NCBI GenBank assembly: GCA_030272155.1
Contig: CP126194.1
Span: forward strand, 1,789,501-1,853,500
From: Tetradesmus obliquus
Lineage: Eukaryota > Chlorophyta > Chlorophyceae > Sphaeropleales > Scenedesmaceae
DNA: 64,000 bases
Reading direction: 5' to 3'
Positions 23,824 to 48,674 of this stretch are shown piece by piece. Made by a program: the position numbers and the translations under genes. How positions within the stretch are numbered: the stretch's first letter is position 1; each line of letters begins with the position of its first letter. The notes under the pieces were generated by a model, which did no database searches, had not been told where the DNA came from, and saw nothing but the letters and a program-made list of their open reading frames with translations.

Positions 23824-26800
23824 ATGCCTCACCTAGCAGGTTGCAGTGTGCCGGCAGCAGCGAGGCATGCGGCAGTGCTGCTGGTGGCAGTGCTGCTGGT
23901 GCCATGGCCACAAGACTTTCTTGTGCTGCAGCAGCAGCAGCAGCAGCACAGCAGCCAGCAAACAGGTGTGCTGCGCTCGCAGCGCCTGGTGGCTGGGCAG
24001 GGTCTGCTGGTGGGCCCCGAAAACCTGGGCGCAGGACAACTGGCAGTTGCCGACACCTTCGATCAGTTCGAAGACATGCTCGACGTTGCAGCGCAGCTGT
24101 CAGGTAAACAACAAAATGCATCATCAGCCCTGGCAGTTGTTCTGTATGCGTGCTTTCAAGCAGCTGGCCAGCATGCCCCCGTATATGTTGCACGCTGAAA
24201 AGCTGATGCTGTAGCATGAGTAGTTGCCTGATCCATGCATGGCATGCTGTTGTTGCACTAATGTTTATGGCACTGTGGTGGGTGGCAAGGGTACACAGCG
24301 ATGACTATCCTGCTGCTGCTGCTGCTGCTGCCGCAATTTTTGCAGGTGGCAGAGGCCGTGGCGGCCGCGGGCGCAGCAACAACCTGGGCGGGGAAGGCTT
24401 CAGCAGCACCCCCGACATGGTGCAGCTACAGCTGTCTAGCTACATCTTGGCAACCACACCAGCAGTGTTCCGCACAAAAGATCTGCCAGAGATCAGGGAC
24501 CAAGGTACCACCGCATCTATGCCGCGGATGCTGCATTACCGCACATTTATGATCAAAGCGCCGCACCCAATCAGCCGCCAATTTGAGAGGCTATAAGCTA
24601 CTTGCGGCTGTACAGTGGCTGACTGAGACGTCTGCATCTTCTGCCTCCTGACGTGCAGGCTCTTGTTCCACCTGCGTGGCTCAGGCAGCAGCCGCAGCAG
24701 TACAAATGGCAATTGCAGCCGCTTTGAAAGAGCCTCCCAGCAACTGGAACGTTAGCGCGCACTCACTGTACTATTGCAGCTTGCAAGGAAGAAGCTGCAG
24801 GGTGAGGCCAATATGCTATCTTTCAAGCAACTAGCATACGGCATCAAGCGCCAACTGCTGTAGGTGTCTGTTTGGTATCAGCTGCATCAAGCTGCTGCTC
24901 AGACTGCACGGCCTGGTGTGCATGTCAGCTGGAATTCAGGACAACCATGTTGTAGCAACACACCAGTTCTAATGTTGCCGCCAGATGTTTTATGCTCTGA
25001 CGTGACAGTTTGCTGTGTCCTCCTCTATGTGCAGACTGGCTGGGATATCCCTGATGCTTTAAAAACCATCGTGAGTGCCTAATCAGCAGCATAACAAATC
25101 GCAGACAGAACATAATCGCAGCCAGATGCAGCAATACAACATGAATGTAGCCAGGTGCATATATGCATATGAATAACAGCATATCTCTCGCAGAGCAGCG
25201 CCACTTTTTGGCTGGCAGCAGGCTGGACAGCACGGTGTGAAAGTGCATGCAGCAAGTAGATTGAGCCAACAGGGGGTTGTCCAGTAGCTGAACTTGCACA
25301 TGTGTCTTCCGCAATGCTGTCGAGGTAGCAGCACTGCTGCGGCACCAGGCAGGCAGCAGCAAGCCTCTGCTGTGTCGCTATCTGTGCCATTTACCTCTTC
25401 CTGTTTGTTTGGCCCCTGCTGGATCTTGTTGAAACAGATCGATCAGACGCCGGGTCCCTCAGGGCCTGAGCTGGTGCGCCCCTACAGCTGCTTGGCCCCC
25501 CCTAGTTCCAAAGATGAGATAGGGTTCACTGGCTGGCGGTCTTGGTGCGCAGAAGCAAGCAAAAGGGCAGCAGCGGGCGACTGCAAAGGCCTCGGCACCA
25601 AAATTACCGCGGAACAACCCTGGATAAACTGCACCTACAAGTCAATGAGCTCCTTTGTGGAGATACAGGTGATCTGGCTGCAAGGCGGGAAACAGTATGC
25701 ATTGCTGATATCACGGAGTGCAACAGCGTTGTTGAAACTGATTCAAAGCGCTGCCAAGCACGCTCAGAGATCACAGCAGGGTCGTGTCTGCAGCGGTACG
25801 CAACGCAGCGGCGCGCCACCGCGCGCGCATGTATGCTCAGAGCAAAATTCGCGTTCACGGCACAGTACATATGCTGCCACATACCCACGCATCTGCTCCT
25901 CAAAAGCAGCCTGTTATCTTGAATGTACACGCGACCGACCAAGATAAGGATGTAACAACGCTGCTGTGAGAGTTGATGCTGGTCTTGGCACGCAAATCTG
26001 CAACCTCATTTTCCACTGGTTGCTAAGCTGAAACCACTGGTTGCTGAGCTGATATGTTGTGGTTTGGCAATTGCTGTCGGCCTTGCAGGAACATATCCGT
26101 GACCACGGCTCTGTGATATCGAGGATAATCATATATGTGAGTGGACGAGCAGGTTCAGACTGTGGTTCAATTGAAAGAAGTATCACGTCAATGCTGCTGC
26201 CAGCAACACACTGTATGAACCGTACTTTGGTTGATTGTGAGGCCACAGGATTGAGGGGGCAGCCTAACACCTTCTTTGTGTTCAAGCCTCCATTCAACCA
26301 TGCAGGTGATAGGACACTTGCAGGAGATGCTAGCTGTCGCCAGTAGTACTAGTGTGCAGTTAGGAGTGGTGTTATATATAACATACCATATGTAAGTTAC
26401 ACATTTATGTATATGTATGTGTGTTTTCTTCTGACGGTTTGGACGATGATGAGTTGTTCTTCGATGTTTCCTCCCCCTATGAGCCTCTCGTTGGCTCCTG
26501 ACTGGGGTTCCCACTCCTCGTTGAGTGGAGCATGTAATGTAATGTAATGTATAATAAACATACACACGCTTTAATGTCATCTTCCATCTGAAGGTCGCGG
26601 ATTTCCTCTGTGCCGGCTGGCTGTCATAGGATGACTTCAAAGTGCAGTTCAACAGATCCGCCAGATACTTTACGAGCGCGCAACTGCCACCATACAAGCG
26701 GAACCTCACCGCGAAGCCAGCGTTCGGCCATGCAGTTGTCCTTGTGGGGTGAGTGCCAGCTGGCTGCTGTAGCAGCGTTGTTGTACCTGACTGTCAATCA

Positions 26801-29800
26801 TGCACAGCAGTGCTGCCACAACAGCCAAGTGACAGCTCCGCCCTGGCTGTGCGCCCAGCCTGCACTCATCCGCACCAGGCGGCCTTGCTTAGTGTGATTC
26901 CGTGCGGTGCCGAGCCACTCATCCGATGCAGGGGCCGCACATCGCTGATACTGTGTGCAACACCTCATGGGCATCAAGTAGAGCATCATGTTGTGCAGAA
27001 CAGCTGGAATATAACAGGATTCCACATAGTCTGCTCGCTTGCTGACGTACGTGTGTGATCTGTCCGTGCACGGCCGCAGCTACGACAACAACAACTACAC
27101 CTGGACTGCCATGAACAGGTGCGCTGCATCAAAGTGCTTTGCTTGTTCTATAACCTGAAGTAAACATGCTATGCATGGTGGGATGGCAACACTACTGCTG
27201 GTCCAGCATGCACGCATGTGATCACATGAGGATACAGGCTTTCAAAGCTATCACAGCTTGCATACTATGCACGCGGCATGTGCAGGTTACCTGACTGCAT
27301 GAGCAGCAAAGCAACTGCTGTGATATTGTGTGTCTTCAATGCCTCATCAGTAAGGTCAGACAACACTGTAACCATGAAGTTGTTTGTAATTTGTGGCTTG
27401 GTACATTGATGCTTGGGGCCACATGAGTTGGCTTGCAAGAGTGCACTTGACAGCTTTTTGATTGTACTTGACATGCACCAAGACACTCTCTAATGACACT
27501 GCCATCGATTGAAATCGTGCTTCACGAGCTTCTTCATATAGCACTCACTACGGTGTTGCACTGGCACACATGTCTCCAATAGCTGGGGCAATGGTACTTC
27601 AAGATTGCAGCGCCGGCCAACACGAGGGTTACAGGATGAGACTCATCGTAGTGCCACAGCAGATGGTCTGTTCAGGATACAGATGGGCATTGGAGGTGCG
27701 CAGCTGGGCCTCACGGTTGGAACATCCTTCCTATCTGCAGCGCTGTAGCTGTTGTGTGTGACATACATGTCAAGTTGGCCATTGTTGGCAGTATTCAGGT
27801 GGCATTAAGCAAGCTGCACAGCACAATCAGACATTGTGGGTTTGGGCCTGGTGAATGTGGATTCGCAACATTTTTAAAACGTTGGCACACGCACACCAAT
27901 GCCAGCACACCTGGTATGCAACTGCATGCAGCGACGCATGATGTCACACCATGTGCGTCCTTGACACCCTACAGTGTACTTTTGCACTACATGCAGGTGT
28001 TGGGACTCCAGAGCAAACCTACGGGGTTGTCTGCACTGCCACACAGCAGCGGCAACTAGCCACTGCAAATTCTCAGCCTTGGGAGCAGGAAAGGCGACCT
28101 GTAGACCCTGACAACAGATCTGATGCACTGGACATTCTAGCTACATGCTACAAGTACAATTTTAGGTTGGGCGTCGGTAGTGAAGTGGTCGGGGATACCT
28201 CTGCGGAATTTTGTCCAGTTGAACGAGAAAACATTTGGCGGGCTGCAACACGTCAATTTCAGCTTTGCCAGCAAGTTGGCTGAAGCTGACATCATTGATG
28301 TCCTTGGGTCTGTTCAAGAGGCTACACTCAACCTCACAGATGACAAGCCGTTCCTCACCTGCTTGTCTTACGATGCACGTGGGGAGGCTACCAATGTTAC
28401 ATGCTATCTCGACACAGTTGCAAAATGCGGCGGGCTGGGTGTGGCTGCCTGCACCCTGCACTACAAAGATGTCAATGTGTCGGAGACCCTGCCACCAGGT
28501 GAGGGGTATGTGATGGCAGCTGGGCAGGATGCAACGGTTGATAGACTGCGATATGATCTGAAATCTCGCAGCGTACCCGAGTTGAGCACAAAGTACAATG
28601 CAAAGCATTCTTTGTGTCAGCTAAAGAAGTCATACTGACAACATGCTATGTAGCCCGGCTTGGGGGGGGGGGGCAAGCAACGGCCTTGATTGTGTAGCGG
28701 TGTTGTTGAAGTGGCTTGCGCTGCTGACCGGCATCACAAAGCATATTTTTGCACTAGTTTTGATAGTATTTTGTGAAAGTAATCAACATTTGCATGCTCA
28801 TTAATTCATGTTGCAAGTCCCTCACACCGCCATGCTGATGCAGCTTATGCTCTTGTTGTAGACGCGCACAACACCTAGCTACCAAGTTGAATTCCAGTGC
28901 TTGAAGCTTCAGCAACACATCTGCATACATGCAGGCACTACCGTCCAATTGTGCGACTCCAGATTTGCAAGACTAGGTGAGTTGGACCAGGTTGCGTTCA
29001 TGGCAAGCAACAAAACGTCTCAACAACGGGCTCTGTTGAGCGTTTTGAAGTTGGTGGCACCAGGGTTGTCAGTCCAGTCAGCACGGAAGTACGCTCAGTG
29101 CAAGCCCACCCCTAATGTTCAACCCGTTGAGATACAGCAGAAGGGCTACAAGCTCAAATGGTACGTCAACTGTACCCTGCAGCCCTACGAGGTGACAACG
29201 TTGTCATTCCGACTTGACATCACAAGTCGTCCCAACGCAGCACTTGCAGCTCGGTTGCCTACCCTCAACGACGCTTTGATGAATGCATTACTAACTTTCG
29301 AGGATAGTCTGGAAAACCTGGACATGATGGTTTATCAAGGGGAGTTGCCTTCAAAGTTGGGTGCTCTCAGCAAGCTGCAGCGGTTGTTGGTGTATTACTA
29401 CTGCATGACGGGTGGCCTGCCGCCCAATTTGCTATATGGTATGCAAAACGCATATGAGGTGACCATCAGCCAGTATGCAGGTGCGGAGCAGTACCAGCCG
29501 GATGGTGTGCAGTGTGGCATCACTGGATTGGTGCCTCCAGAGTGGTTTACAGACACCACCGATGCTTCCGGTGTCACCGTAACCCCCGCCACATCAATGC
29601 ACACAATCGACGCCAGTAACAACAAGCTGTCCGGCAGCCTGCCAGACATAACGGCATGGAAGAGGCTTCAGCTCCTCTTCTTGTCCAACAATCAATTCAG
29701 TGGTCCGGTAAGTGCTCCGCGATGCACCAGTCAAGCACTACCCATGTCAGTATGCACGGGATGAGCCGTTCAATACGGCAACAACTGCACTTTAAGAGAG

Positions 29801-32800
29801 CTTGATGATAAATGAGGCTAAGGCTGCTTGTTGGACATGGTATCAGCGCTGTCACGACTGCTATCATGGGTGCCACCATAGAGGGCTTGTGCAAACATAC
29901 ACATGACATACTCATGAAGTGCATGTCAGCAATGATACTTCTCCATGTCGATGATGACTATGCTTTGATGCCTTTAGCAATAGTTGACGTATGCGGCCCG
30001 CACCGGGTGCTACATGTGTCTGGCACTTGCACTGGACTGCTGGGCTGAATTGAAGCATGTTGGCACATGGCGTTCCCTACTGCAAGCATGCACAGTCCAG
30101 GCCTTGGCATGTGCTTTCCTGCTTGCAAGCTATTGTAGCGACTAACAAGCTAGGCTAGCTGGTTATTATGTGGCGGCCGCTACGGCAGCCTCTTGCTATT
30201 GAACAAGTTGTCCTCCGATTGAAACAGAAAGTTTCAAAGTAGTTTTTTGCAATTTGTGTGAGCTCAAATGCAGGTTCCTGCTAAATGGGCAAGCGTGGCT
30301 GGTCCAGTCTTTACTGTTGACCTGCAAGCCAACCGGCTGAGCGGCGTGTTTCCTCGTGAGTGGTCGGATCTCAAGGGTTACATCGTCACGCTCACATTGG
30401 ACAACAACCCAGCGCTCACAGGTTGCGTGCCCTTGGATGCTAGCACCACTGTGACGTATGACAATACTGGCTTATCTGGTGTGTGCATGGCAAACACAAA
30501 GGAGGTAGAAGCACAACAAATTCAGGCTCTACAAAATCACTTGAAGCCGTTGTTTGGAGCTGGAGCAGACAAGGCATATGTTGACATGCTTGAGCAGCTA
30601 TTGAAAGATGTTGCAGGCTTGGCTGATGTAGTCGAAGCGGGCCAGAAATACTCGAGGTTTTATGGTCGGATGGGAGCAGATAGTGGAACCACCATTGACA
30701 TCGTCATTGGTGTGGAGCTAGTGCAGACTACCACCTACATCATCAGCATTGACGCAAATGGCGGTGCTCGGGCAGGGCTCAGCTTGACACACTTGGTGCC
30801 ACTAGCACAGAGCCTGCCACGTCTTAACACCTTCATCTGCAAAGAGTGCAGTGCCAATGCGCGGCCTGGGCCCCAAGACCTGCAGCTGCCAAGCCAGCTT
30901 GCCCAGGCAGCTCCACTGATGAAGGTGCTTGATTTGACAGGTTGTGGTCTACAGGGGCAGCTGCCAAATTCATGGGGCAATTGGAAGAGCTTGGAGGCCT
31001 TGTATGTGGGATCTCTTGACCCAGAGACTGGTGCACAACTCCCCACTAACAACCTGACAGGCAGCATCCCGCCCTCTTATGCAAACCTCAGCAATCTCAA
31101 GTTCTTGGAACTATCAGGCGATGTTGGTTTGACAGGCCAGCTGCCACCCGAGTTTGGCTCCGCAGAGAAGATGCCAATCAGTGTTGTGTTCTACCTGGGC
31201 GACACAGGCTTGCAGGGCCCTATTCCCCTCAGCTGGTCATACTTCAGCCTGGGTCTTGTGGAGGTGGGTGGAAGCGGAATCAACTTGACTTGCATCCCTG
31301 ATGGGTTGTTGGTCATGGAGTTTTATCGATTCACCACAGCGCCACCATGCTCAGACACCAGCCCACAAGTTGCTGCATTGGTCGCCCTACAACGGATGAT
31401 CAGCAGAATTGGCGGCAGCTCTGATGCTCTGGCCACTTGGAATGGCGCCGACCCTGGCGGAGCAGGTGGGCACGGCAGCTTTCAACAAGTCGCCTCCTGC
31501 TCTTGCACAACTGTACTTGAAGTTGGAGCACCTCGGGTAGAGGGTGTGGAGCCCAGGGGCGGCGCCCCTGGCCACACACACCCTCTTAGCCTTAACTTAC
31601 CCAGGAGCTGCAGAGCTGCCTGGGTAGACACTCACTCACTCACTCACTGGAGCACCTTCATCAGTCGCGCAACAGGCATGCCGTGCCTGGCTTGCGACAT
31701 ACTATTCATTCTCAGCTACTTGCGTCTGTGTGTAGCAGCAAATCAACACACATGCTGCTGCAACAGTTGTAACGCGACGCAAGCATCGCTGACATGATGT
31801 GAATGGTGCGTATGTGCCACGCCTGTAGGTCCAAAAACGCCCCCCAAGTACTGCCGGCTCTGGACTGGGGTAAGCTGCGACTCTGGTTACCAGGTCATCG
31901 GGCTCAGCCTGACCGCCTTGAGCATTCAGCTGCCTCCCACTGCTTCACTCAACTTCACAATGGTTGTTGAGCAGCTGCGCCCCCTCAGCTCCACTCTGAA
32001 AATTTTGGATGTAGCAGCGCTCCAATCTGCTGGCGAGTTGCCAAAGCTCCTGGCCATATTCAGCAAGCTGGAGGTGCTCAACCTCAACGGCAACACCGAC
32101 CTCACTGGCAGCCTGCCCAGCATATGGTCAGCACTCACAGCACTACGAACAGTGGACGTCTCCAACACTGGCATCAGCGGCAACCTGCCATCCTCTTGGG
32201 CATCGATGCAGGAGCTGCGTGCATTCAGGGCAGCCAACTGCAGCGGCTTGTCAGGGCAGCTGCCGCTGGAATGGGGCATCCTGAGGAGCCTTGAGGAGCT
32301 GGTAGTAACAAACAGCCAGCTGGGCGGGACCCTGCCAGCATGGACAGATGCAGCGGAGGTACGGGCAGCAGGCGCTGCTGTCCTGGCGACCGCAGAACAA
32401 ACAGCCAATGATGCTGAGAGTGCTGGCTTGTCACCTGCTTCTGTGGAGCGGAGCACGCGTACAGTGCGGTACAGCAGCGGCCATGTGGCGCCGCAGGCGT
32501 TGGCAGCAAGTGCCAACCGCGCTGTCACTGCAATCAAAGCAGCGCTGGCAGCAGCACCAGCAGGCACGCGCTTCATGCCGCTGCGCATCATCGACCTGTC
32601 GGGCAACAAGCTGAGCGGCCAGCTGGTGCCGGGCTGGTCGCTATTTGAGCAGCTGCAGGTGAGCCTTGGATGGCTTAGCTTGGTTCACAGTGTTACGGGG
32701 TAACATTGCGTGAGGTAGCGCTGACGAATGGCTTCACCTAGTTGCAAGGTCGAAGGTGCTCGGGCAAGAAAGCAACAACACCACGCTGTTAACCTGCAAC

Positions 32801-32895
32801 ACATCTATTATTGTTCGCGCATCTTGGTTTGTGTGGAACTATTGCATCACAACAACTGTGATGGATGGCAGGTGCGCTGCATGTAGAGCAGTGGC

Positions 32896-32929
<34 letters not shown>

Positions 32930-33416
32930 GCTGTTGCTGCTTCTGGTGTTGGTGTTGCTTTGCTGCTATGCTGCTGGTGATACTGCTGTTGCGGGTGCTG
33001 ATGCTGTTGGTGACGTCATTGGTGCTGCTGCTGCTGCTGCTGCTTGCTGCATCGAGCAGATGCTCATCTTATCCCGCAACTCCCTTTCAGGCCCCCTCCC
33101 TGATGGCTATGCGCGCCTGACCACCCTCACGGCGCTGGACCTGTCAACCAACTCCTTTACTGGCCTGCTGCCCTCCACATGGGTCAGCATGCGGCAGTTG
33201 GTGTTCATGGACGTCTCGGGCAATGCCCTGGTCAGCCCTACTCCTGAGACCCTGCCTTACATGGCTGGGGAAGGGTTCAGCCTGAAGTGCCTGGTGCTTT
33301 TTGGCAATGCTGGCATGGACGCTGCAGAGTTGGCTAGTATAAAGCGCCAGATGGAGGCTGATTCGGTCAGCAGGGTGACAGTTGTAGTGGAGGCACGTGC
33401 AACATCTCTGTGCTAG
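23824..33416 (+). CDS. papain-like protease plus LRR protein, plus-strand copy (frameshifted)
   Basis: Fourteen exons: 23824-24103, 24346-24504, 24659-24801, 25035-25070, 25438-25668, 26089-26136, 26630-26748, 27080-27118, 27583-27695, 27997-28498, 28935-29707, 30274-31465, 31829-32658, 33060-33416. A hydrophobic N-terminal segment suggests secretion. The C1A protease domain keeps its active site: Gln146 (IRDQ), Cys152 (GSCSTC), His333 (GHAVVLVG), Asn351 before SWGNG. Then come a Cys-rich linker, LRRs and an LRRNT_2-like cap (CRLWTGVSC). Exon 10 is 502 nt against 513 in the minus-strand paralogue. The reading frame shifts near 28164, and without correction a TGA is met at 28281, giving about 484 aa: the whole protease with a short tail and no LRR. 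The last exon also ends out of frame with the paralogue. It may be a pseudogene, a shortened protease, or carry a sequence error. Confidence 0.8.
24310..24330 (+). repeat. (CTG)7 in intron 1 of the plus protease-LRR gene
   Basis: Seven perfect CTG units end 15 bp before the exon 2 acceptor (tttttgcag), in the position of the polypyrimidine tract. Confidence 0.9.
26372..26560 (+). mobile_element. possible 3' end of a non-LTR retroelement in an intron
   Basis: The intron between 26136 and 26630 is about twice as long as the matching intron in the paralogue (494 against 233 bp). The extra sequence has AT-rich composition unlike its surroundings and ends in a tandem atgta repeat (26532-26552), which creates three overlapping TGTAA poly(A) signals. 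Short terminal repeats of this kind are common at 3' ends of algal LINE-like elements. No reverse transcriptase is present, so the call is tentative. Confidence 0.4.
30794..31157 (+). repeat. near-identical tract shared with the inverted paralogue (plus arm)
   Basis: These 364 bp match 41577-41940 on the other strand with two mismatches by direct reading (Asn/His and Val/Leu codons). Flanking parts of the same exon differ at many positions. It covers the LRR stretch around 'GCGLQGQLPNSWGNWKSLEA'. Confidence 0.95.
32894..33043 (+). repeat. interrupted CTG tract in the last intron of the plus protease-LRR gene
   Basis: Long CTG runs, broken by CTA/TTG variants, fill the 3' part of the intron right up to the exon 14 acceptor (atcgagcag at 33051-33059). 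They produce a spurious Leu-rich ORF that should not be read as protein. Confidence 0.85.
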
Positions 33417-34529
33417 GCGCGTGAAGGGTTGTATGCAGCATATATATAAGGGGCGCACTTGCGGCATCTCTGTGCTGGGTGTGTGAAGCTGTGCAGTGCA
33501 TTGTGGCCAACCTAGAGTGTGCATAACGCTGCAAAGACTTAGGCGTAGTGTGTTGATGTGAGATCACTATGTCTTGGGCTCGAATTGGCGAGACGAGATG
33601 GTACTACTGTTAGTAAGGCTGTAGTGAGACATAGTTCGTCTTCATTTGAGTAAGCAAACCCATGTGCACATCATGATGTCTTTGCCAATCACTCTTGTGT
33701 CACTTGGCATGCAGCTCTGCAGCCCCTGAACCGGCAGCTTTCTTTATAACGGAGCTGTAGTTCAACTACGAGCATGCTGCTCAGTGTAAAACCAAACCAT
33801 GCACAAAATGTCCAGACATCTTCTAGATCTTGAACGCATGCTTGCACGTTATACCCCTTGAATATGCATGCCGTGCGCTACACAGGTCTCTCCGTGTCTC
33901 ACATGCTGCTGCAATCCATGCCAGCATCAAGCAGCAATATCAACAAACACCATCAAGCAGCATGACATAATCGGTGCTTTGCACCAGTTGCTGGCCATTT
34001 GAATGGGAGCACTCAGTCGAGCCAACGTAAGAAAAGCATGCAACACACAATCATTGCAACGGTCACCAGTGTCCATGGCGCTGTCACACAGGTGTGGACA
34101 TGCGGCACTGCTGCTGCATGTACATACAGCTGCACAGCATGGATGTACAACTCAAATATGGAACTCAAATTGTAGCCAGACAATACTGTGTACGAGACAG
34201 ATGCTTGCCAACAGGTCTGCAGCACATCAAAAGAGACAGATCTAGAAAAATTGAACGGCCCGGTAAGGCTGACAGATGTTGTAAGGTATGCAGGCTCTGC
34301 TCAGTAGGCCCATCTGGGTGCACATCGTCACCACATGTACGCAGGCGGCACATTCATCCGGATAAGCAGAGGCTGTTGTCATCACATCAACTGACCATAT
34401 GCATTTTACGCAATGCCTCCTCATCTGCAAAGCCATCCATGTAAATCATAATCATCTTTGGCACATCCCGTAAAGTCCCCAACCACGCAGCCAAATATTC
34501 AGATTGACTGGCCTCATGAATAGGCTAAA
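33417..34529. other. 3' flanks of the plus protease-LRR gene and the aspartic protease
   Basis: Convergent 3' ends meet here. Just after the stop, 33451-33490 repeats the last coding bases of the gene with changes. No separate gene is seen. The remainder is ordinary mixed sequence. Confidence 0.5.
33785..33789 (+). terminator. candidate poly(A) signal TGTAA
   Basis: TGTAA occurs on the sense strand 369 nt after the stop of the plus protease-LRR gene, a normal 3' UTR distance for green algae. Confidence 0.35.
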
Positions 34530-35361
34530 TCAAGCCTGCACTGAGGTGTAGAAGCCGATCTGCAGCGCCTGGAAGTCAAACACCGTGTAGAACTGCGCCA
34601 GGAAAGGCAGGTCCAGGATGTACCAATTGGTGACGCCTGGCGCCAGGTCGCTCACTTGGAAGTTGGTGAACGTTGCGCCAGCGTTATAGTTTGTGGCGCA
34701 GTTGGGAACAGGCGGCTTACCATCCCTAGTCAGGTTCATCTTCACACTGCCTGCTGCCCCCAGATCAACCAGCAGCTGGTGGCCACAACCAAGAGCAGGT
34801 GTGACACCTGTCATGGCTCCAATGGCAATGTCAGCTGCGCCCTTGGGTGTGATGACAATCTCAGGCCAGCCGCTGTCAGCAATGGTGTTGCAGTCGGTGC
34901 AGATGGTCTGGGAGGTGCCATCAGCATACAGGATGGCCATGCGGGCGACCGTGAACTGCCACCACACCTGCGGCAACAGGAAGGGCACAAACAGCACCCA
35001 AAGCGCGTTGATGTTGCGCAGCGCCGCTGCCAAACCAAAGCATTGCAGACTACACGCACCTTGTGTGATCTACCCCGGTGATCATGTGCATGCAGGGCAT
35101 AATGTTGTCAGGATACAAACCGTCAGTTTTGGTTGCTGCTGCCCTCGCTGATGTGGCAGCACTGCAGACTTGCCGCCTTGGTGATGATCAAACATGGCAG
35201 CGGCCTGTTGTACACATGTGTCTAGAGATCTACTCACCAGCGTGTTGTTCTGTGCGTTGGTGCGCACAGCAGAGTTGGCAGGCACAACAGGGGCCCACAC
35301 AGGGGAGCCTGTCATCCTGTTGGCGTCCAGTTGCCCAATGTCCAGCCACCCTGCAGCAGCC

Positions 35362-35397
<36 letters not shown>

Positions 35398-36980
35398 ACG
35401 GCAGCAGCGACAGCAGCAGCAGCGGCAGCACCAGTAGCATACGTGTCGGTCACACAAACAGAAACATAGCCGTGGACTCTGGTGCAGGTCGTGCAGCAAC
35501 TCCCTGCACCACAAACTCCTGTTGAGTATGGTGGTCATCTACCAGCCAATGACAAAACGGGCATGAGGCCCTGGTGAGAGTAGCCTCAGCAGCACCGCCG
35601 CACCAGTTGCCCCAACACAGTAGCATTCGCAGTAGCAGTTGCAGCAAAGCAAGCCGAGCAGCGACAACAGTAGGAGTGGCAACTCTACACCAAATGCATT
35701 TAAAGCAGCATGAACACTAGCAGCAGCAGCAGCAGCAGCAGCACCGACCCCAAGGCAAATGCGCACCTCCTATGTCATTGTAGCTCTTCAGCAGCGTAGC
35801 GTTGTTGCTGAGCCACAGCCCATAGCGGTTGGAAGCTCCGCCAGCAAAGTTAGCAGCAGTGGACAGCTGGCGCCAGGTGGACGTCATGTTGTTTGCCTGG
35901 CCGCCAGGCTGAGCGTATGAGCCCAGCGCAAAACCGAACAGGCCGCCGCCATCGCCATTGGTGCCCTTATCGCCATCTGTCACGAGCAGGTTGAAGTTTT
36001 TCACTGTGATGGAGCCAACTGTAGCGGTGTCTGTGCAGTAGAAGCCCGTCTTATCGCCTGCGCCACCATACCTGCAGCACCACAAAAATGCATCATCATT
36101 TGCTTAATTAGGTACCGGCAATATGGAAGTGGTTGTTTTTGCTGAAAAATGCCAGGTAATGGTCACAGAGGCGTGCGGAAGCATGATCACACAGCTGAGT
36201 GCCCCTGCAAGAGCGCCACTTGCTCGAGACAGACCAGCAGGCTGTATGCTGCATAACGCTGGGTAGCAGATGAATGCTGCAGGTGTTGCCACAGAGGCAC
36301 GCGCAGGCAGCCACTCACACAAGCGTGCCAGGCACAGAGGTGTTGACAAACGAGGTTGACTGCTGCCAGTTGAAGCCGCTGGTGTAGGGCGTGGTGCTGC
36401 CTGTGTCCAGCACCACAGACAGCTTCTGCTGCTGGCTGCCCATGACCACAGGCAGCATCACCTTCTGCAGGCCGCAACAGCACGCAAAGGGCACAACACC
36501 CGTGAAAGCAGGTGTATACGCACTAGGTAAAGATACAGCAGAGTATAGCTGGTTGATGTTTTGTTAACGGCTGATAACAACTGCATAACAGACCCATGCA
36601 ATCTACCCTACTCACACGGCTCGGGAGTACAGAAGACAGCACAGCTGAGGTGAAAATGTGTGCAGCTGCTGCAGCATCTCAGCAGAGCCAACGCTACACC
36701 GCAGCTGCTGCCCTACAGCAACACAGCCCATGACCCACCTTCCCATTTGGCTGCCAGGCCAGAGGCACAGCAGGCATCAAGGGCTTGGATGGAGCCACAC
36801 CCTCTGCAAGCATTGTGGTGATTGGCACGCCCCTGCTGCTGCTGTACTTGCAGAACAGCATCAGCGTGGCGCATTGGTTGTCATTTATGCCGGGCACAAC
36901 AGCAGCCATGTACCTGGCCAGCTGGCTGGCGCTGGAGCCGTAGGCAGTTGCGGAGTAGGTGGTGGCCCAACCGCTGGCCT

Positions 36981-37018
<38 letters not shown>

Positions 37019-37455
37019 GGTGTGGCGCGTATCGTCAGCAGCAGCATCAATGCATGACATAAGTTGCTGATGACAGGTGTGATAACTACGACTCGCTGCA
37101 TATGCAAAACAAGCTATGGACAACTGCCATGCACATCCAACCAAATGCTGCAACCAAGCTGCAGGCTGCCTGAACCGGGGCTTTTCTTGGCTGCACAACA
37201 CGCACCGTGTCACGGCAGCCGACATAAGTAGCTGACACCCGTACAATCTTAGGCAGGTAGCCTGGTGAGGACAGGGACACTTGCAGCCTGGCTGCTAGAG
37301 CTGACATAACCTTCTGGTTGAGCTGTGAGCAGGGCACAGGGGTGCTGACATGCAGGCTGAAGGTTGTCGATTGCTTGAAGTAGGTGGCAGTGTGTGCCTG
37401 CTGCTGGGGCTGAGCTTGAGCATGGCTGAAGGAGAAAGGACAGCAGCACGGCAGC

Positions 37456-37498
<43 letters not shown>

Positions 37499-37883: not shown

Positions 37884-39417
37884 GTTGGCCACTTCGCGTC
37901 CCGTAGAAACAAACCGTAGAATGCAGATACAGATTCAGATCTGTATCCTTGCACAGCGTGAAGCGTGCCGAACGGGGCTAGCACGCAGAAGGTGATCATG
38001 ACGACCCTCCGCTGACAGCCACCTTACACGCCTGCAGTGTTCCAGTGAATGTTCAGTCGATTCACCTTGCACTAATTCATGAATATTTCTTGTGTTCGCG
38101 TGACGGCAGCGAACTTTCCGCTGCGCTGCCGATTGACAAATCACTGCAACGATTTGTCAATGCATTGACAAAGGTGAGCGGCGCGTGCTATTCAGGGATG
38201 GTCCCTGGTGCGGCATAAGCACATATCGAGTAATTTAAAACCTCTTTCATTGCAGAGAATCCTGCACAAACACAGCTCGGCAGTTTTGGCGGGAGATGCC
38301 CCCTCCCGAGCATGCCTGCCAGTCACTGCCAGTGACTGCCAGCTGGCAGTGAGTGCTCACTGGCCTGGCGCCCTGGCAGACAAGCTTTGGTGATGTTTCT
38401 TATCAAACCTAAGTCTGCCCAGAGAAACTAGTGACAATGCATACATATTAGTTGTCTTGATCGCTGATGATCAATGATGGCCTAGCCTGGAGTCTGTGCT
38501 GAAGACGGATTGGCAGCAACAGTTACTTGCTGCCGCAGCTTGAAGGCCTTGGTGGCTGCAGAAAAAAAAGCGCAGTCGCGGGCGTAAACACAGGCATAAA
38601 CACATAGCCCCAAAACCAAACATCTACTGACAGGTTAGGACGAATGTTTGTCAGGGCATGCACAGAAGCGGATGCATAGCCATACATACACATGCATGAC
38701 TGCACATGCACATGCAGTGCGGCTGCTGTCTGGCACCACAACTGCATGGCGCGCATGCGTACATGCTATGCATAGCAACACATACATACATCATAGCACG
38801 TGCACATGTTGCTAGTTTCTGCTTGAAAGTTCCTGCGCTTGCGCTGCTAGAATCAACCTGTCTGCAGCTGAATGCAGCTGACTGCAGTTGTTCACGTCCA
38901 TAAATGATGCTAACAAAGATGCTACAAAGTGAACCCCCACTGATCCAAAACCCTGCTGCAGACATACCTCCACGTTGCTGCTCCGCCGTTGGCTATACAT
39001 GAATCAGCACCCTGCCCTTGCTGCGCTACATGTAATCTAACAGTGCAACGGCATAGTATGCTGCTGCAAAGCAATCAAGATGGTGATGCCTTCTAGGAAG
39101 CATGCACTTGAAGTTGCTGTGCAGCTTCATATGAGCAACAACTGCCTTCTCAGAATTCAACTCAGCATGCGTACACCATGTTGCTCTACACAGATCACCC
39201 ATGTGGCTTGCAGGGCCAACATTCTGTTTTGAACCACCCGACGGATTGCCACTCGTTTATGCTGTGTTGCATGGACACTGCAATCATTGCTACCACCGTA
39301 GAGCCACAGCAGTGCCCCTCGTATCTACTGTCACGCAGCAGCAACTGCCCTTGTGGCATGTTTGCATGCAGCGACGTCTGCATGAGCAGAGGTTGCTCAT
39401 ATGCTGCATGCACCCCT
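37884..39417. other. upstream region of the aspartic protease and 3' flank of the minus protease-LRR gene
   Basis: No gene is seen. There is a perfect 8-bp inverted repeat (gatacaga...tctgtatc, about 37925-37946) and a cluster of cagt/actg inverted repeats at about 38319-38375. From 38640 to 38800 the sequence is rich in catacacatgca-type alternating repeats. Confidence 0.5.
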
Positions 39418-42400
39418 TCACGCGTCTAGCACAGAGATGTTGCACGTGCGTCCACTGCGCGCAACGACAACTGTCACACTCTTGCCTGAGTCAGCTTCCA
39501 TCTTGCTCTTAATGCTGGCCAATTCTGCACTGTCCATGCCAGTGTTGCCAACCAGCACCAGGCACTTGAGGCTGAAGCCGTCCCCAGCCATAAATGGCAG
39601 GGTCCTAGGAACAGGGCTGACCAGTGCATTGCCCGAGACGTCCAGGAACACCAGCTGCCGCATGCTGACCCATGTGGAGGGCAGCATGCCAACAAAGGAG
39701 TTGGCTGACAGGTCCAGCGCCGTGAGGGTGGTCAGGCGCGCATAGCCATCAGGCAGAGGACCCGACAGGGTGTTGCGGGCCAGGATGAGCCTCTGTACGG
39801 TGTCAGCAAGCGACAACAGCAACAACAGCAGCATCAGCAGCTACATGGTGAGGTTCTCAAAAGCATAGGCCCTGCAGCGCAACACCTCGATCTGGGTCAT
39901 ATAGAGCCAAACACAACAACAGTGCAAAGCCGAGATGACATCACAACGGCTCATAGTATCAAGGCCGTCAGTGGCACACCACTGCTTCATGTCAGCATCA
40001 GCTGAAGTGGCAGCAGCCTGAAACATCAGCTGGCACAAACAAGCCTTCCTTGGCTCACCTGCAGCTGCTCAAAGAGTGACCAGCCCGGCACCAGCTGGCC
40101 GGTCAGCTTGTTGCCTGACAGGTCGAAGACGCGCAGCGGCATGAAGCGCGTGCCCGCTGGTGCTGCTGCCAGCGCTGCTTTGATGGCAGTGACAGCGCGC
40201 TGGGTAGCTGCTGCCGTCGCCTGCGGCCCAACACGGCCGCTGCTGTACCGCACATGGGTAGGGCGCTGCTCCACAGAAGCAGGCGACAAGTCGGCATCGA
40301 CCGCCTTCTCCGCTGCCTGCTCTGTTGCAGCCAGCGCAGCAGCCCCTGCTGCCCGCACCGCCCCTGCATCTGTCCATGCTGGCAGGGCCCCACCCAGCTG
40401 GCTGTTTGTCACCACTAGCTCCTCCAGGCTCCTCAGGATGCCCCACTCAAGCGGCAGCTGCCCTGACAGCCCGCTGCAGTCTGCTGCCCTGAATGCACGC
40501 AACTCTTGCAGTGACGCCCATGAGGGTGGTAGGTTGCCGCCGATGCTGGTGCTGGAGATGTCCACTGCTTGGAGCGCAGTGAGCGCTGACCATAAGTCTG
40601 GCAGGCTACCAGTCAAGCCCTTGTTGCCGTTTAACATCAACACCTCTAGCCTGCTGAATGCAGCTAAAGATTCAGGCAGGTCACCTGTTAGATGAAGGGT
40701 CGCTGCATCCAGCACACGCAAAGACGAGCTGAGAGGCTGTAGCTTCTCAACCAATGTGGAGAAGTTGAGAGAAGCAGTGGTTGGCAGCTGAATGCTTAAA
40801 GCAGTGAGGTTAAGTGCAGTGATCTGATAACCAGAGTTGCATGCTACTCCTTTCCAAAGACGGCAATACTTGGGGGGCGTCTTGGGACCTGCAGGCATGC
40901 GAAGTGCAAAGTATTCTCATGTTGACGGTGCATGGTACTACTGAGTTGCTGAATTGGTTGCAGCTAAGCTGCTTGCCAACAAGTAAGACGTTGCAATTCA
41001 TTAATGACGTCGAACTTCATAATAATGTAGTGCACTACGCAGCAATGGATTTTTGTCTCTTAACTAGTGAGAGGGTAGCTGCATCTGAACATCACACACA
41101 GACACAGAACCCAGCACCAGAGTTGAGCATGTGTAAAAGCAGAAAAGCATACGTTGTAGCGAGGGAGGGGGGGGGGGGGGTGTTGTAGCTGACAGCGACT
41201 GTCCAACAGTTGACATTCTAAAAAGACTGTTCAACAGATGACAAACAAAACAGACATGTCAGATTCACCTGCTTCGCCAGGGTCGCTACCATCCCAAGTG
41301 GCAAGAGCATTGGAGATGCCACCACTTCCTGTTATCATCTGCTGCAGGGCGACCAGCGCAGCAACTTGAGGGCTGCTGCCTGAGCAGGGTGGAGCTGTGG
41401 TGAATTGATAAAACTCCATGACCAACAACCCATCAGGGACACAAGTTAAGTCAATCTGGCTATCGCCAACTTCCACAAGCCCAAGGCTGAAGTAAGACCA
41501 GCTCAGGGGGATGGGGCCGCGCAAGCCTGTGCTGCCTAGGTAGAAGACTGCATTGATTGGCATCTTCCCTGCGGAACCAAACTCGGGTGGCAGCTGGCCT
41601 GTCAAACCAACATCGCCTGATAGTTCCAAGAACTTGAGATTGCTGAGGTTTGCATAAGAGGGCGGGATGCTGCCTGTCAGGTTGTTAGTGGGGAGTTGTG
41701 CACCAGTCTCTGGGTCAAGAGATCCCACATACAAGGCCTCCAAGCTCTTCCAATTGCCCCATGAATTTGGCAGCTGCCCCTGTAGACCACAACCTGTCAA
41801 ATCAAGCAACTTCATCAGTGGAGCTGCCTGGGCAAGCTGGCTTGGCAGCTGCAGGTCTTGGGGCCCAGGCCGCGCATTGGCACTGCACTCTTTGCAGATG
41901 AAGGTGTGAAGACGTGGCAGGCTCTGTGCTAGTGGCACCAGGAATGTAAGGTTCAGCCCAGCTGCGCGGCCGCCGTTGACCTCAATAGTAGTGATGTATG
42001 TGGCACCCTGAAACAACTCTACGCCTATAGTTACGTCGATGGTTGTTGTGCCATTTGTATTAAGCTGCCCATAAATCTGGGAGCTGGTCTGGCCCGGCTT
42101 GATCACCAGCCCCAAGCCTTCACCATTCTCTCCTTGCATTTCCTTCACGAGCTGTTTGAGCACGGCAACGTACGTTCTGTTTGCTCCGGCTCCCAACAAC
42201 CGCACCAAATGATCATGCACAGCCTGCACTTGTTGCGCCTCCACCTCTTTGGTATTTGCCTTGCACACACCGGTCATGCCAGTGTTTTCGTACTTCACAG
42301 TCGTGCTAGCGTCGAGAGGTGCGCAACCCGTAAGCCCTGGGTTGTTGTCCAGTGAGAGTGTGACAATCTTCCCCCTGAGCTGCGACCACTCACGGGGGAA

Positions 42401-45390
42401 CACACCCCGAAGATTGTTGTCCGCCACGTCGACAGTGTAAACAACCTCAAGGCTAATGTTTGCCCAAGAAGAAGGAACCTGTGTACATGAAAGGGTGCAC
42501 ATTCATCCATTGTGTACACATTGTTTCATGAGCAGCAAACTGTGCAGAGCAGCAGCGGCAACTTCGAAAGTGGCACAGGCTAGAGACAAAAATTACCTAA
42601 GCGCCCTCTCAGAGGGCGCCGAGTCAGCGCCGTCTGTCAGGTGTGACGGCAACATGTTATGTGCAAGGGGGCGCGCCTTCTGTTCATGAGTATATTGTGT
42701 ATACGAACGGTAGGACAGTTGTGCTAGATACAGGCTCAGAAGTGCACTAGCTAGCACACTTTTCCTCAGCATAGTACACGAGAGTGCAAGAGTTGTCAAA
42801 GCTGTGCATACAACGCAAGCAATAAATGCCTCAACTCAACGACTCGTTGTGAGTGCCACCGTGGCCAATGATTGGCGGCATCTGTGGCACACTGAGTTCA
42901 GCATACTACCATCAACATGTGCTCATGAACACTTACCCCGCCTTCAAATCTGTTGTTCGACAAATACAAGTTTTGTAGTTGTGGCCATGTATTGATGTCA
43001 GGAAGGCTGCCAGAGAGCTTGTTGCCGCCAATGTCAATCACTTGTAGTGATGTGGCAGGGTTCAAATCTGCACCTGATGCATCTTTAGTGGGTGTGAACC
43101 ACTCAGGAGGCACAGGTCCAGTGATGCCGCACTGCACACCATCCGGCTGGTACTGCTCGGCACCTGCATACTCCCTGATGGTCACCTCCCATGCATTTTG
43201 CAGGCCATACAACAGGTTTGGTGGCATGCCGTCTTTCATGCAGAAGTAATACACCAACAGCCGTTGCAGATTGCTGAGCGCTCCCAGCTGTGTTGGAAGG
43301 CGCCCACCATACACCACCATATCAAGAAGCTGTAGGCTGCTTTGAAGTGACAAGATAGGGTACATCAGGGTCTCATTGAGATTTGGGAACGAACCTTGGA
43401 GTGTGCTATCCACTCTGCCAGCAATGTCGACTCTGAACGATAGCGTGGTAATGGCGTATGGTTCGAGCGTGCAGTTGATATACCATCTGACCTTGAACCC
43501 TTTCTGCTGGATCACCTCAGGTTGAATCGTTGGAGTAGGCTTGCAAGTGGAGTACTTGCTGATGCGCGTCTTTGTTAGCCCAGGTGCCACTCTGCGTAAC
43601 ACACTGACAAGAGCCCTTTGTTGTGCCAGTGTGTTGTTGGCGATGATTGCAACTTTGTCGAGCTCTCCAGGTTGCGCAAACCTGTCGCTGCACACTTGCA
43701 CTATGGTGCCTGCAGCCGAGAATGTGACAGTCTTACTGGGCAGACGTAGCTGATTGATTCATCAAAACAACACATGCAACACATATTGCAGATGGCAGGA
43801 AATTGTCTACAAACATGCAGGCTGTGCATTATGCACACCAGACTGAGTTCATTTGGCGGTGCGGGCAAATATGAGCTTACAGCAGCTTGGCAGGGCACTT
43901 TGCCATTGTGTCAACGCAACTCCGACAGCGTCCATGAACAGCCTACACATGAAATGCACTGCAAGACTGCTAGGATGCTGGTGTTCCATGCACTCACCTG
44001 CTGCCAGCTCCAGAGACACATTCACGTCTTTGTAGCGCAGCGCACAGTTCACAGTGCCATTCTGAGCGCACTTCTGGGTATTGCCAGAAAGGCACGTCAC
44101 ACTGCTCGCCGCTCCACCTTTGTCATAGAATGTACATGTGAAGTACGGCTTCTCTGTCGTGAGATCTGCTGTGACGTTGCTCACGACGTCAAGGATGTTC
44201 TGCAGTTGACGTGCTTTCTTGGTCTGCCCTAGCCTATACGTGACGTCCTGCAAGTTCCCAAACTGCTTTCGGTTGCGCTGGATGAACAGCCGATAGTCCA
44301 AGTCAAACCACTCCACAATGGTTGAGACTGACTCGTTGGCTTCTGTTTTGTACTTGTAGCAATTGGCATTCACCTCGAGCGCCACAGCAGCATTAATGGG
44401 TGACACGGGCTTGCGTGGCTTGGCCAGCCATGGTGTGCCGTGCAAATCCTTCTTGTTGCCAGGAAACACTGTGCAAGCCACGCCATATGTCTGCTCAGGC
44501 GTGCCGACACCTGCCGGAGTAGCAATGGCAGCAGCACGGCCATGTAAAATAAATCGCTAGCATGTGATTTGGCCCCAAGGGTTGCAGGGCAGTCGGCAGA
44601 GTTCCCACATGCAGCCAGATGCTGGTTGTGAGCCATGAGCTTGTCAACTGCAGCAGCAAATAGCAATCCAGTTGAGCCTCCCAGGCAACTGCTCACCTGC
44701 CAGGCCCATGTTGATCCGGAACAGACCGTCCGCAGTGATGCCTTCCTTGTCCTTGTTGGTGGAGCCCTTGCCCCAGCTACAAGCACACAAGAGGGCACGG
44801 AGCAGCAGAGTTGTCAACACTGCGCGACGCATTGTCCATAATGCCGGCAGCTCATTGCTGCACAAGGTGGATCAACTGTAGTGTCCAGTTGAGCATGGTG
44901 GGCTCATGCTGGCCAGCTCACACTTTACAAGCCGTGCAGAGCCGCCAGTACCCCATTGGTGATTGCTTAGGAGAATTCACTAAATGGACTGTAAGCTGAC
45001 TACCATACATGAATTGGTCCAACTGTGGAATGTGTGAGGTACTCATGCATGCTATGCTGTTGCAGCACCACCATTGCAATTAAGATGCAGGTGCGATAAT
45101 TTTCACCTGTTCAACCCAGTCCATGTGTAGTTCTGATTGTTATACCTGCAGTAGCAGCACCAAGAGCAGCCCCAAACTTGTCATTTACAAGAGATTCGGC
45201 AGTTGACAGATGTGTTGCAGAAGCCAGAAAGCACAAGCACACCACCAAGCAAGTGTGTGCTACTACACAGCTGGTGCTGCTAATGGCTATGTCTGCACAT
45301 CACCACTCATATCAGCCACTGCGCTGATGATTGCTGCTCTGCCGATTGGAAATGCAGTGTTGTGGTGATGCGCCGCTGTATGCTGCTGCC

Positions 45391-45422
<32 letters not shown>

Positions 45423-48400
45423 CGTGGCATTTGTGTGGTATCAACTGCTCTACTGCATTGCAAACGCAGTGCTGTGGTGAAGCACCACTGTCTGCTGCTG
45501 CTGCTGCTGCTGCTGCTGCAGAAGCGCTCTGTGTGCTGATAGTCAGCAATGCTGTGCCGGACTCCGCGGCATGTGTTATTGCAGCAAGGCTGCAGCAGCA
45601 TAGACCCACCCGACTAGAGCAACAGCATGGCCATAGACAGCCTTGGCTGTTGTGTTCTTCTTGTATGGTGGCCACTCCAGCCCAGAAACGTTCCTTGCAG
45701 TCTCATTGAACTGGACCTCCCAATCATCCTGCAAGACACATGACAAGAGTACACATTGTGGCACAAGCTTGCAACTTGAGCACACCATTAAATAATTTGG
45801 CAGAAGGATAAGGCAGAAGCTGTGAGTTGTCGTGTCGTGCAGCCACGACAGGCGCTCATAGCATAACAGGCAGCACCAACACCATGCATAGCGCCACAGC
45901 CTGTGCTGCACCCAGCTGCATGTACTGTTGACCACAGCCATTCAAAGCTAGTGCCCCTTACGTTCATGATGATGCGCGACACGATTGCGCCATGCTTGCG
46001 GATGTGCTGTTGCATCTGGTAGAAGTTGCTCAGCGACCTGTAGCTGCACTTGAGCAGCGGCTTCGGCCGCGTGATCTTGTCTGCAGTGCACTTGCCGTCC
46101 GCTGCTGTTTCATTGGCTGCTTTGCAATAAGGCTCCCAATCGATGATGTCTGGCTCCTTGTTGCGGTCCACCAACTCAGGGTACTTTGATTCAAGGCAGC
46201 CAGTAGGCCTTAGGAGGTCTGGTGCTGTGTCAACCTGCAGAGAGCAGCAGCATCGTGTTGCCATGTAAGCCATAGCAAGTCGCCATCGGCCCATCGTTCG
46301 CTGCAAAGAGCTTGATGCAACAGGCACAACTTGAAGCATCGGCGCAAACATGCTGGGCTGCATCATTACTGGTTGCGCTGCGTGCATACCACGCACGGTT
46401 GTCGACCAGACGAGGCACAGGATGCCCGAATGCGCAGCACATGGGGTCGGCTGGTTGTTGCATGCATGCAGCCTCATGTGCATACGCAGCATGACACTGT
46501 GTTACTCACAATGTGCTTGAACGCATCCGGGATGTCCCAACCAGTCTGCACACGGCAGCAACAGCAACAGCAGACAGCAGCAGGCATCAGCAATCTGCTT
46601 TTAAAGTTAAGTTCAGGGTTTTGAGTAGCATTCACCAGCTACTGCTCCTGGAAGCTGTTGCTGCTGATTGGAGCTGATCAAAACTGCTCCCCACTCTCCT
46701 CAGAACGCAGCACAGCACAGCTGCTGTGCCCAGTCATGTTGCCGGCTGCGGCCGCACACCTTGCAGGTCCTGCCCTTCAAGCTGCAGTAGTAGAGGGACC
46801 GTGCATCAATGTCCCAGCCAGCCGCAGACTCATCCAAGGCAGATGCAATGGCCATTTGCACCGCTGCTGCAACAGCTTCACCAACGCATGTGCTGCAAGG
46901 ACCTGCAGGGGCAATGCACATTGGACAGGCAAGAGCGTGAGTCCTTGCTGTTGAGTGGCAGCAATGGGGTTGGCCGCGCTATCGTACGCAGCTGTCCGTT
47001 CAAAAGAAGCTGTTGCGGCGTGCGCAGCAGGCGCGGGTTTGGGATTGCAAACGGTGGTGTGGGGAATGAAAAAAGAAATGCAGCTGCTGGAACTGCTGCT
47101 GCTGCTGTGCCAGCAGAGTGTTGACCAGGAGTCGTGCGAAGCCTGCCCTTATATTGCCGATCGCTAAAATGCTGCTGCTGCACACACAATTCGGCGGCCA
47201 CAACCCACCCTGATCCCTGACGGGTGGCAAAAACTTTGTGTTGGGATGCCAGACCAGGGGCGATGCTGCAACCGCGTAGCTTGCAAGCTGCAGCTGCTGC
47301 ATGTCCTTCACTGTTGTGACGCCACCAGCACCCAACTTGCCGCTGCCACCACGGCCACCTCTGCCCCTGCCGCCTGCAGGAGGAATAAATGTGCAATGGA
47401 CTTGTTCATTGCGGTTAATGCAGCGTAGCTGTATCCCTGCTTGCCTGGTCAAAGGCAAGCAGTGGGTGAGGTGACAGTCATAACACGTCATTACCTCACT
47501 GCTGCCGAAGGCCACTTAGCATGCGCAGGCGTCTAGCCCTGCACGTTTCGTTGCTGTTCATGCGAACTGCAACTCGCCCGCCCTTCCCGCCCCCTTTCTT
47601 TTGTGGCTACTGTTCCGCATTGTGCACTGGGTGCTGGTGCTGCAGTGGCTGTGTTGCTAGCGGTGCCTCTGGTTTCAGGTGATTGACCACTGGTTGTCAG
47701 TTGCCGCAGAGTAGATGCGCAACATGCACAACGTGCCGCGCTACCTGCCGAACCTGTGCTGCTTGCTGGGTTTCATGGTTCTATGCTGCCTTGCAGCAAC
47801 GAGATGGTGTTGCCCGCTGCAGCCCCTACATAGTGTCATGTCCGCTGCCATGCAGCGTCTGACAGTGGTGCGCTGTCGTGCAGCTTTGATAGCTGTGCTG
47901 ATGCTGGTTGCTTCCCATAGTGTGTGCTGCTTTGCAGCTCTTCAGTGTTTCTGCTGCAGGCCTGCGTTGCCTGTTTCTGCGTTGTGCGCCCTTGCGGCGG
48001 GCTTGTTTGGGGACCTGTTCATTGTTGGTCCCCTGCCTTCCCTTTGCTGCCGGTGCCTGCACCTGTCAGCTGCTTTCGCCTTTCCTCTGTCTTGCCTCTT
48101 GCTGTTGAATTGTGCCGCTCTCTGTGCTTGAAAGTGTGTAACCCCTCAAACGACCTTACAGCCCTTGCATTTTCCTGCCAGCTGTTACAGCAGCCTCAGC
48201 CATGCCTTCCCACTATCTATATCGTCATGGCGAAAGCAGTATTAAAGCAGAGGGCAACACTCAACTGTGAGAGGTGTGCAGCCAGCTGCAGTGCATGCAT
48301 CGGCTGTGATACAAGTCCATGACAATGTGTACAACTTCTTCATGACGTGGCTTCTCTAGCTGCTCTAGCCAGCATCAGCGAGCCTCAGAACTGTGCAGTG

Positions 48401-48674
48401 GTAGGGTTGCTGCATTGGTAAGCTGCAGGTATGGGGGTTACGCTCAATACTGACCTGTTAGCTCTGCTGCCAGCTCCAGAGCATCCTCAAAAGTGTTGAA
48501 CTCGTTGACTACTGCCAGCTGGCCAGCACCCAAATTGTCAGGGGTCACTGCCAGGCCTTGGCAGTCAGCCAGCAGGATCCCACCACCCCACTGCTGCTGC
48601 CACTGCTGCTGCCAGGGGGCCAGCAGCAGCACGACAGCGAGCAGCAGTGTGACCAACCCTGAATGCATCATCAT
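39418..48674 (-). CDS. papain-like cysteine protease fused to leucine-rich repeats (intact copy)
   Basis: Thirteen exons (48455-48674, 47209-47373, 46760-46902, 46510-46545, 45962-46234, 45610-45728, 45107-45145, 44697-44776, 43998-44510, 42937-43709, 41269-42478, 40059-40888, 39418-39792) join in frame to 1591 aa, TGA stop. The start MMMHSG leads a signal peptide (LVTLLLAVVLLLAPW). A Gly/Arg stretch (GGRGRGGRGG) precedes the C1A domain: Gln128, Cys134 (exact papain spacing of 6), His313 (HAVALVG), Asn331 before SWGKG, then GLFRI. A Cys-rich linker follows, with a LysM-like stretch ('ESVSTIVEWFDLDYRLFIQR', inferred). Then come plant-type LRRs (e.g. 'LTGSIPPSYANLSNLKFLEL') with an internal LRRNT_2-like cap (CRLWKGVAC). 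There is no kinase or C-terminal membrane anchor, so the protein is probably secreted or vacuolar. The protease could process wall or foreign proteins bound by the LRRs; that role is speculative. Confidence 0.88.
41577..41940 (-). repeat. near-identical tract shared with the inverted paralogue (minus arm)
   Basis: Partner of 30794-31157: same length of 364 bp, two mismatches. It lies within exon 11 of the minus gene. Confidence 0.95.
45392..45519. repeat. two triplet tracts in a tandemly duplicated intron segment
   Basis: CTG runs at 45392-45421 and 45492-45519 each follow a similar unit (gcagtgYtgtggtga..., about 45353 and 45468), showing a local duplication of roughly 115 bp in the intron between 45610 and 45145. 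In gene sense they read CAG, unlike most intronic runs here. Confidence 0.75.

Follow-up and report, generated by a model that had tools for sequence, protein, structure and literature searches.

Inverted papain-type protease-LRR paralogues in Tetradesmus obliquus, with probable gene conversion in their LRR halves

Gene content of the locus

The window analysed here (a 64,000-nt stretch of Tetradesmus obliquus contig CP126194.1) contains two paralogous genes that face each other tail to tail, copy A on the plus strand (23824-33416) and copy B on the minus strand (48674-39418), as identified by self-blastn of the window and exon homology. Self-comparison places the inverted arms at 28930-33443 and 39399-43714, and exon homology carries them to 23824 and 48674. 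The longest inverted repeat in the window is 697 nt at 91% identity, and the likeness of the arms varies strongly over the length of the gene. An earlier note, made from the sequence alone, had described an inverted, tail-to-tail pair with a pepsin-like protease gene in the spacer, and our models of all three genes agree with it. The features discussed below are the following.

23824..33416, plus strand: copy A, C1A protease, LysM-like segment and LRRs, 14 exons with a frame break in exon 10 (hand-built model)
24659..27695, plus strand: protease exons of copy A, with the catalytic Cys in exon 3, His in exon 7 and Asn in exons 8/9 (model; PF00112)
27997..28498, plus strand: exon 10 of copy A, LysM-like region, frame break near 28160; 11 nt shorter than in B
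28935..33416, plus strand: LRR half of copy A, exons 11-14; exons 11-13 jointly group with B
30794..31180, plus strand: probable recent gene-conversion tract in copy A, 387 nt with 4 mismatches to B (alignment)
34530..37421, minus strand: pepsin-family aspartic protease, six modelled exons, frame open on to 37535 (model; PF00026)
39418..48674, minus strand: copy B, uninterrupted C1A - LysM-like - LRR gene, 1591 aa in 13 exons (model; Pfam)
41554..41940, minus strand: partner of the tract in copy B (alignment)
43998..44510, minus strand: exon 10 of copy B, aligned to the LysM-like segment of paralogues (alignment)

The exon models of A and B were built by hand, with both strands read and the A/B homology as a guide, and their internal junctions are all GT-AG. 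The note gave both genes 1500-1600 codons and a matching exon order. The lengths hold (1591 aa for B, 1602 codons for the two open pieces of A together), as does the exon order, but A is not one intact frame and the exon counts differ because exon 5 of B corresponds to exons 5 and 6 of A. Amino acid identity of the open pieces of A with B is 51% (202/393) before the break and 70% (814/1165) after it. The 11-nt shortfall of exon 10 in A sits between two conserved blocks, and beyond the break the frame stays open as far as its stop, which comes after a loss of 10 nt. A short intron, considered by eye as the cause of the break, was set aside: its length would fall well under that of any intron modelled here (A and B, 154-1081 nt; a related copy on C3, described below, 152-420 nt).

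CTG/CAG runs are frequent in introns and near exon borders (e.g., at 32876-33054, 35328-35441, 36962-37021, 37429-37509 and 45358-45542 of the window). In frame they encode poly-Leu and can mimic a signal peptide, as happens ahead of the aspartic protease. Twenty open frames in the flanks gave two Pfam matches at E<=0.001, one of which is below its own cut-off. An open frame at 19717-20424 of the window matches the ABC-2 transporter family over a short length (27.4 bits against a cut-off of 26.9) and is perhaps an exon of the upstream neighbour.

The spacer gene is assigned to the pepsin family A1 by its PF00026 score (68.2 bits, cut-off 19.9) and its DTGS and DSGW motifs. No in-frame Met was found for it: the open frame to 37535 runs through poly-Leu, and a scan of 10 donor hexamers over 2 kb upstream yielded two splice-joined candidates for a first exon, neither convincing.

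Domains of the paired genes

The N-terminal parts of A and B match PF00112 (50.8 bits for the N part of A and 36.0 bits for B; curated cut-off 20.7). The match is a distant one, and the nearest solved relative of the head by sequence has an E of 4.1e-4. When the models are read, both copies have the catalytic motifs DQG.CSTC (with the preceding Gln), GHAV and NSWG, with Val in place of the Trp that follows the catalytic Cys in papain. The heads are thus assignable to peptidase family C1A (papain), and proteolytic activity is predicted. Catalytic residues are kept in all three genes of the locus, as the note had stated (Cys, His and Asn in A and B, DTG and DSG in the aspartic protease).

Both copies begin with a hydrophobic stretch, judged by hydropathy only. 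The note had ascribed a signal peptide or hydrophobic N-terminus to all three genes, which is right for A and B but lacks a start codon to build on in the model of the aspartic protease. Past residue 60 of B there is no membrane-span-like stretch: no 19-mer reaches a mean hydropathy of 1.6, and the best one (1.53) lies inside the protease. Proteins of the A/B type are probably secreted.

Several LRR models exceed their cut-offs in the C-terminal half (LRR_1 reaches 73.5 bits, cut-off 20.6), and 11 G-x-[hydrophobic]-P cores were counted in B by pattern. In a search of PDB sequences, the best solved matches of the last LRR part are plant receptor ectodomains such as those of GSO1, MIK2 and FLS2. 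The tail is accordingly classed by its sequence as a plant-type LRR array, and the description of A and B as probably secreted proteases joined to recognition-type repeats is supported. Plant-type LRRs are what A and B have in common with these receptor ectodomains and with the secreted PGIP. They differ in having neither a kinase domain (none at E<=1 in a Pfam scan) nor a membrane-span-like stretch and in carrying a protease in front, and so appear to be neither LRR receptor-like kinases nor receptor-like proteins.

Exon 10, between the two halves, resembles the first half of a LysM domain in several relatives. The match is weak. A seven-row exon-10 profile has as its top four PDB matches Ecp6, a LysM receptor kinase, MltD and YaaH (E 0.022-0.12; E 0.024-0.19 for the top PDB matches with one row longer), and we take Ecp6, MltD and YaaH to be LysM bearers. 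None of six longer peptides reaches the PF01476 cut-off of 20.9 bits (best 16.9). Five short pieces gave 21.1 (one hand-spliced at GT-AG sites), 19.6, 18.1 and, for two, no match, and one further short piece scored 15.2 bits; short, hand-picked pieces inflate the score. Exon 10 of B has no Pfam LysM match, and its single-sequence fold is uninformative (mean pLDDT 33.8). Since the scores are weak and B has none, we use only the label LysM-like.

Elsewhere in the genome, a LysM match lies within 6 kb downstream of six of 60 C1A loci, four without LRRs and two with. At the loci without LRRs two matches are strong (E 3.3e-10 and 1.1e-4) and two weak (0.05 and 0.29); at the loci with LRRs both are weak (E 0.70 and 0.83). 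A 390-aa open frame at C4:7472417-7473232 (minus strand) has five LysM matches above the cut-off. C1A peptidases joined to LysM are on record outside vascular plants, in the part of the source available (PMC6362431). As described there, a papain-type head is followed by LysM, much as the head of A and B is followed by the LysM-like segment; in A and B, however, a weak LysM-like part leads on to long LRR arrays, of which that part of the source makes no mention.

A genome-wide family

The genome was searched with three parts of B and with Pfam families. Exon matches were joined into loci and same-strand adjacency was taken as fusion, the modelled members being A, B and the C3 copy. At least 31 of 60 C1A loci in the window's genome have an LRR match on the same strand no more than 14 kb downstream, against two of 60 upstream on the same strand and two of 60 downstream on the opposite strand in the controls (0.37 expected). 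Other joining rules give 31-32 of 60-62. The census used all matches of the Pfam-family searches and of the search with one part of B, and 79 of 109 (covering the catalytic part) from another B-part search; the searches score best candidates only and the counts are lower bounds. One joined locus on C12 contains at least two members. This genome carries about 30 genes in which a papain-type, probably secreted protease seems to be fused to recognition repeats of the plant kind. We found no record of a C1A-LRR fusion in algae among the matches listed in the open-licence literature.

Fused loci form seven neighbouring pairs, each within 60 kb: three head-to-head, three in tandem, and A/B tail-to-tail. 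C1A loci on C8 recur at an offset of about 34.4-34.5 kb between C8:1400637-1415586 and C8:1435105-1450053 (1404881/1439338, 1400637/1435105 and 1415026/1449457). The peptides at 1415k and 1449k are near-identical, which looks like a recent block duplication. In the paralogue at C12:4734039-4734392 (C12:4733k) a stop takes the place of the catalytic Cys and the matched part contains two stops; it is likely a pseudogene.

The aspartic protease does not share this distribution. Protein searches of the genome with the whole sequence and with its catalytic part returned the gene itself and weak matches on C5 (best E 2.3e-4 and 1.6e-4), C8 and C16 (E 0.16 and 0.64). A PF00026 search gave nine matches and missed the window's own gene; it is thus insensitive and its silence weak, and the protein searches are the better test. 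No relative was found near another fused locus, the nearest weak or PF00026 match being about 80 kb away on C3. Within the sensitivity of these searches, a three-gene arrangement with an aspartic protease does not recur.

Mosaic history of copy A

The closest other copy is that at C3:2675944-2685093, which was joined from loci and has two frame breaks of its own. One of these, a 1-nt break in exon 10, lies within tens of bases of the break in A and is a different indel. Counts of nucleotides common to only two of the three copies are as follows, in the order A-B, A-C3, B-C3.

Exons 1-10a: 78, 303, 105
Exon 10b: 32, 90, 33
Exon 11: 147, 107, 88
Exon 12: 287, 83, 92
Exon 13: 127, 61, 62
Exon 14 (76 codons, C3 copy cut): 74, 9, 11

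Three sequences cannot show a topology, so paralogues were added to the trees. The comparison by exon took in 26 other loci, some without every exon and four (on C8) without an LRR match, and the tree rows are exon-wise tblastn pieces, many of them partial. The head tree, built from 18 rows and 384 columns, unites A with the C3 copy (support 100; AU 3.8e-6 against A+B). That for exons 11-13, built from 21 rows and 660 columns, unites A with B (support 100; AU 2.0e-4 against A+C3). The AU tests thus reject the alternative topologies in both parts. Single exons say less: with exon 11 by itself none of the three topologies is rejected, exon 12 favours A+B when the tract is left out (AU 0.024 against A+C3), and exon 13 favours A+B (AU 0.028 against A+C3, but KH and SH 0.054).

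Four-fold sites give a clear signal in the head (n=116; 39 A-C3, 14 A-B, 16 B-C3) and lean weakly to A+B in the tail without the tract (n=241; 49 A-B, 37 A-C3, 34 B-C3). The tail/head distance ratio is 0.25 for A-B, against 0.83-3.01 for six other, non-independent pairs; it is 1.46 for A-C3 and 0.56 for B-C3. Intron 5 was considered as proof of the A + C3 head and is weakened as such, because ten of 16 paralogue matches cross the site and six do not. By their sequence, the two halves of A have different closest relatives: the protease half goes with the C3 copy and the LRR half with B. Exchange that predates the 387-nt tract is less certain than this switch.

Gene conversion and its alternatives

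The tract lies in arms that are about 70% identical. Both of its ends fall inside exon 12, and it includes a run of 232 nt identical in A and B, a length matched in none of 5000 codon-column shuffles, whether over the full gene, over exons 11-14 or within just exon 12. In two 50-codon blocks of the tract, A and B differ at 0 of 52 four-fold sites, and A and the C3 copy at 20 of 35. The A-B dS is 2.07 in exons 1-9, 2.18 in exon 11, 0.92 in exon 12 without the tract, 0.01 in the tract, 0.56 in exon 13 and 0.24 in exon 14. The dN/dS is 0.13-0.37 outside the tract where dS can be estimated (i.e., not in exon 10), and 1.29 in the tract, from very few changes. Corresponding introns are unalignable except for one 27-nt match between A and B and one 18-nt match between A and the C3 copy, which fits conversion limited to exons with remaining homology. 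Repeated overwriting of the LRR half by ectopic gene conversion is the best-supported explanation. Conversion between the facing arms would have replaced LRR exons several times, the last event leaving the 387-nt tract, and the protease halves would have diverged meanwhile.

A single chimeric birth of B (or A), in which an inverted duplication of an LRR half was joined to the protease half of another family member with no repeated conversion, would account in one event for the switch between exons 10 and 12, given that exon 11 alone accepts every topology. The stepped dS across the LRR half is not expected from one event, and a tract that starts and stops inside exon 12 also argues against it; we regard such an origin as unlikely, if worth keeping in mind. 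Uneven constraint could in principle make some exons more alike than others, and dN/dS is well under 1 outside the tract. Constraint is ruled out as the source of the identical tract by the silent sites, which are unchanged between A and B where A and the C3 copy differ at more than half, and as the general cause of the A-B likeness it is hardly credible. Errors of assembly could mimic a tract or a frame break, and the 1-nt break of the C3 copy might be a base-calling slip. The topology switch, however, has more behind it than the tract, and an 11-nt length difference is atypical of such slips, so that we consider this explanation improbable.

The frame break and the altered stop of A raise the question of whether the locus is a relic of birth and death, with A a dying pseudogene beside one working gene. 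The two breaks of the C3 copy and the stop codon of C12:4733k point the same way, and only B is clearly intact, since A is frame-broken. Against this, the frame of A past the break is open to its stop. Unique changes past the break, with the tract excluded, fall on codon positions 1+2 and 3 in proportions of 160:123 (A), 188:161 (B) and 323:218 (C3 copy); the split in A is like the other two, so any loss would be young. There is no sign of longer drift in A, and its break may be young, tolerated or an error. On balance, decay of A has a little less than an even chance. The note had also proposed that the three genes form a specialised module, and one could imagine co-regulation, with the aspartic protease acting, for example, as an activator. 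Adjacency speaks for this and nothing else does. C1A-LRR loci occur genome-wide (31/60), and within the sensitivity of the searches the aspartic protease has no relative beside the others; a module is very doubtful, and in all likelihood the aspartic protease is a bystander.

We return to conversion between inverted paralogues as the preferred reading. Partial gene conversion has been described for TLR1 and TLR6, where one region is kept alike and the rest diverges (PMC2077338, in the part available). Like A and B, these are LRR paralogues that lie next to each other. According to the same part of that source, they stand in tandem, and their converted region starts at LRRs 16-19 and takes in most of the TIR domain; A and B, unlike them, are inverted, and it is the LRR part that is converted and the catalytic part that diverges.

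Putative function and meaning

A and B are local inverted members of a genome-wide, probably secreted family with the order hydrophobic N-terminus, C1A protease, LysM-like segment and long plant-type LRR arrays. A wall or microbial ligand may be recognised by the LRR half, possibly together with the LysM-like segment, and this binding would keep the protease at an extracellular substrate. From these domains we infer ligand-guided extracellular proteolysis as the function, and roles in wall lysis, nutrition or defence, suggested in the earlier note, may be considered in the same way. Taken jointly, the reading of A and B as inverted C1A - LysM-like - LRR paralogues with conversion of the LRR half, putative ligand-held proteolysis and a bystander aspartic protease is one we think moderately probable.

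Other described proteins may be compared in design. A chitin-binding protease of Volvox, induced by wounding and pheromone, is reportedly an extracellular cysteine protease with a carbohydrate-binding part. RflaF_05439 of Ruminococcus is, like A and B, a multi-module protein with a papain-like peptidase module; unlike A and B, it is bacterial, bears a dockerin and belongs to the NlpC/P60 superfamily, and LRRs are named as other cellulosomal modules (PMC3573020, in the part available). Lectin receptor kinases were not retrieved from chlorophytes in one survey, as far as the available part of it reports (PMC6362431).

A bolder proposal is that this is a lineage-expanded, secreted recognise-and-cut family, in which a diversified LRR sensor and an executioner protease would sit in one chain and the halves would be reshuffled between loci by ectopic conversion. 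By analogy, the reshuffling would be as in immune receptor families, but with the enzyme built in. We put this forward tentatively and think it rather unlikely as a whole.

Little is known of how green algae perceive walls and microbes extracellularly. The roughly 30 loci with a papain-type protease ahead of plant-type LRRs offer concrete candidates for this role, and in one of these genes the catalytic and the recognition part appear to differ in their history.
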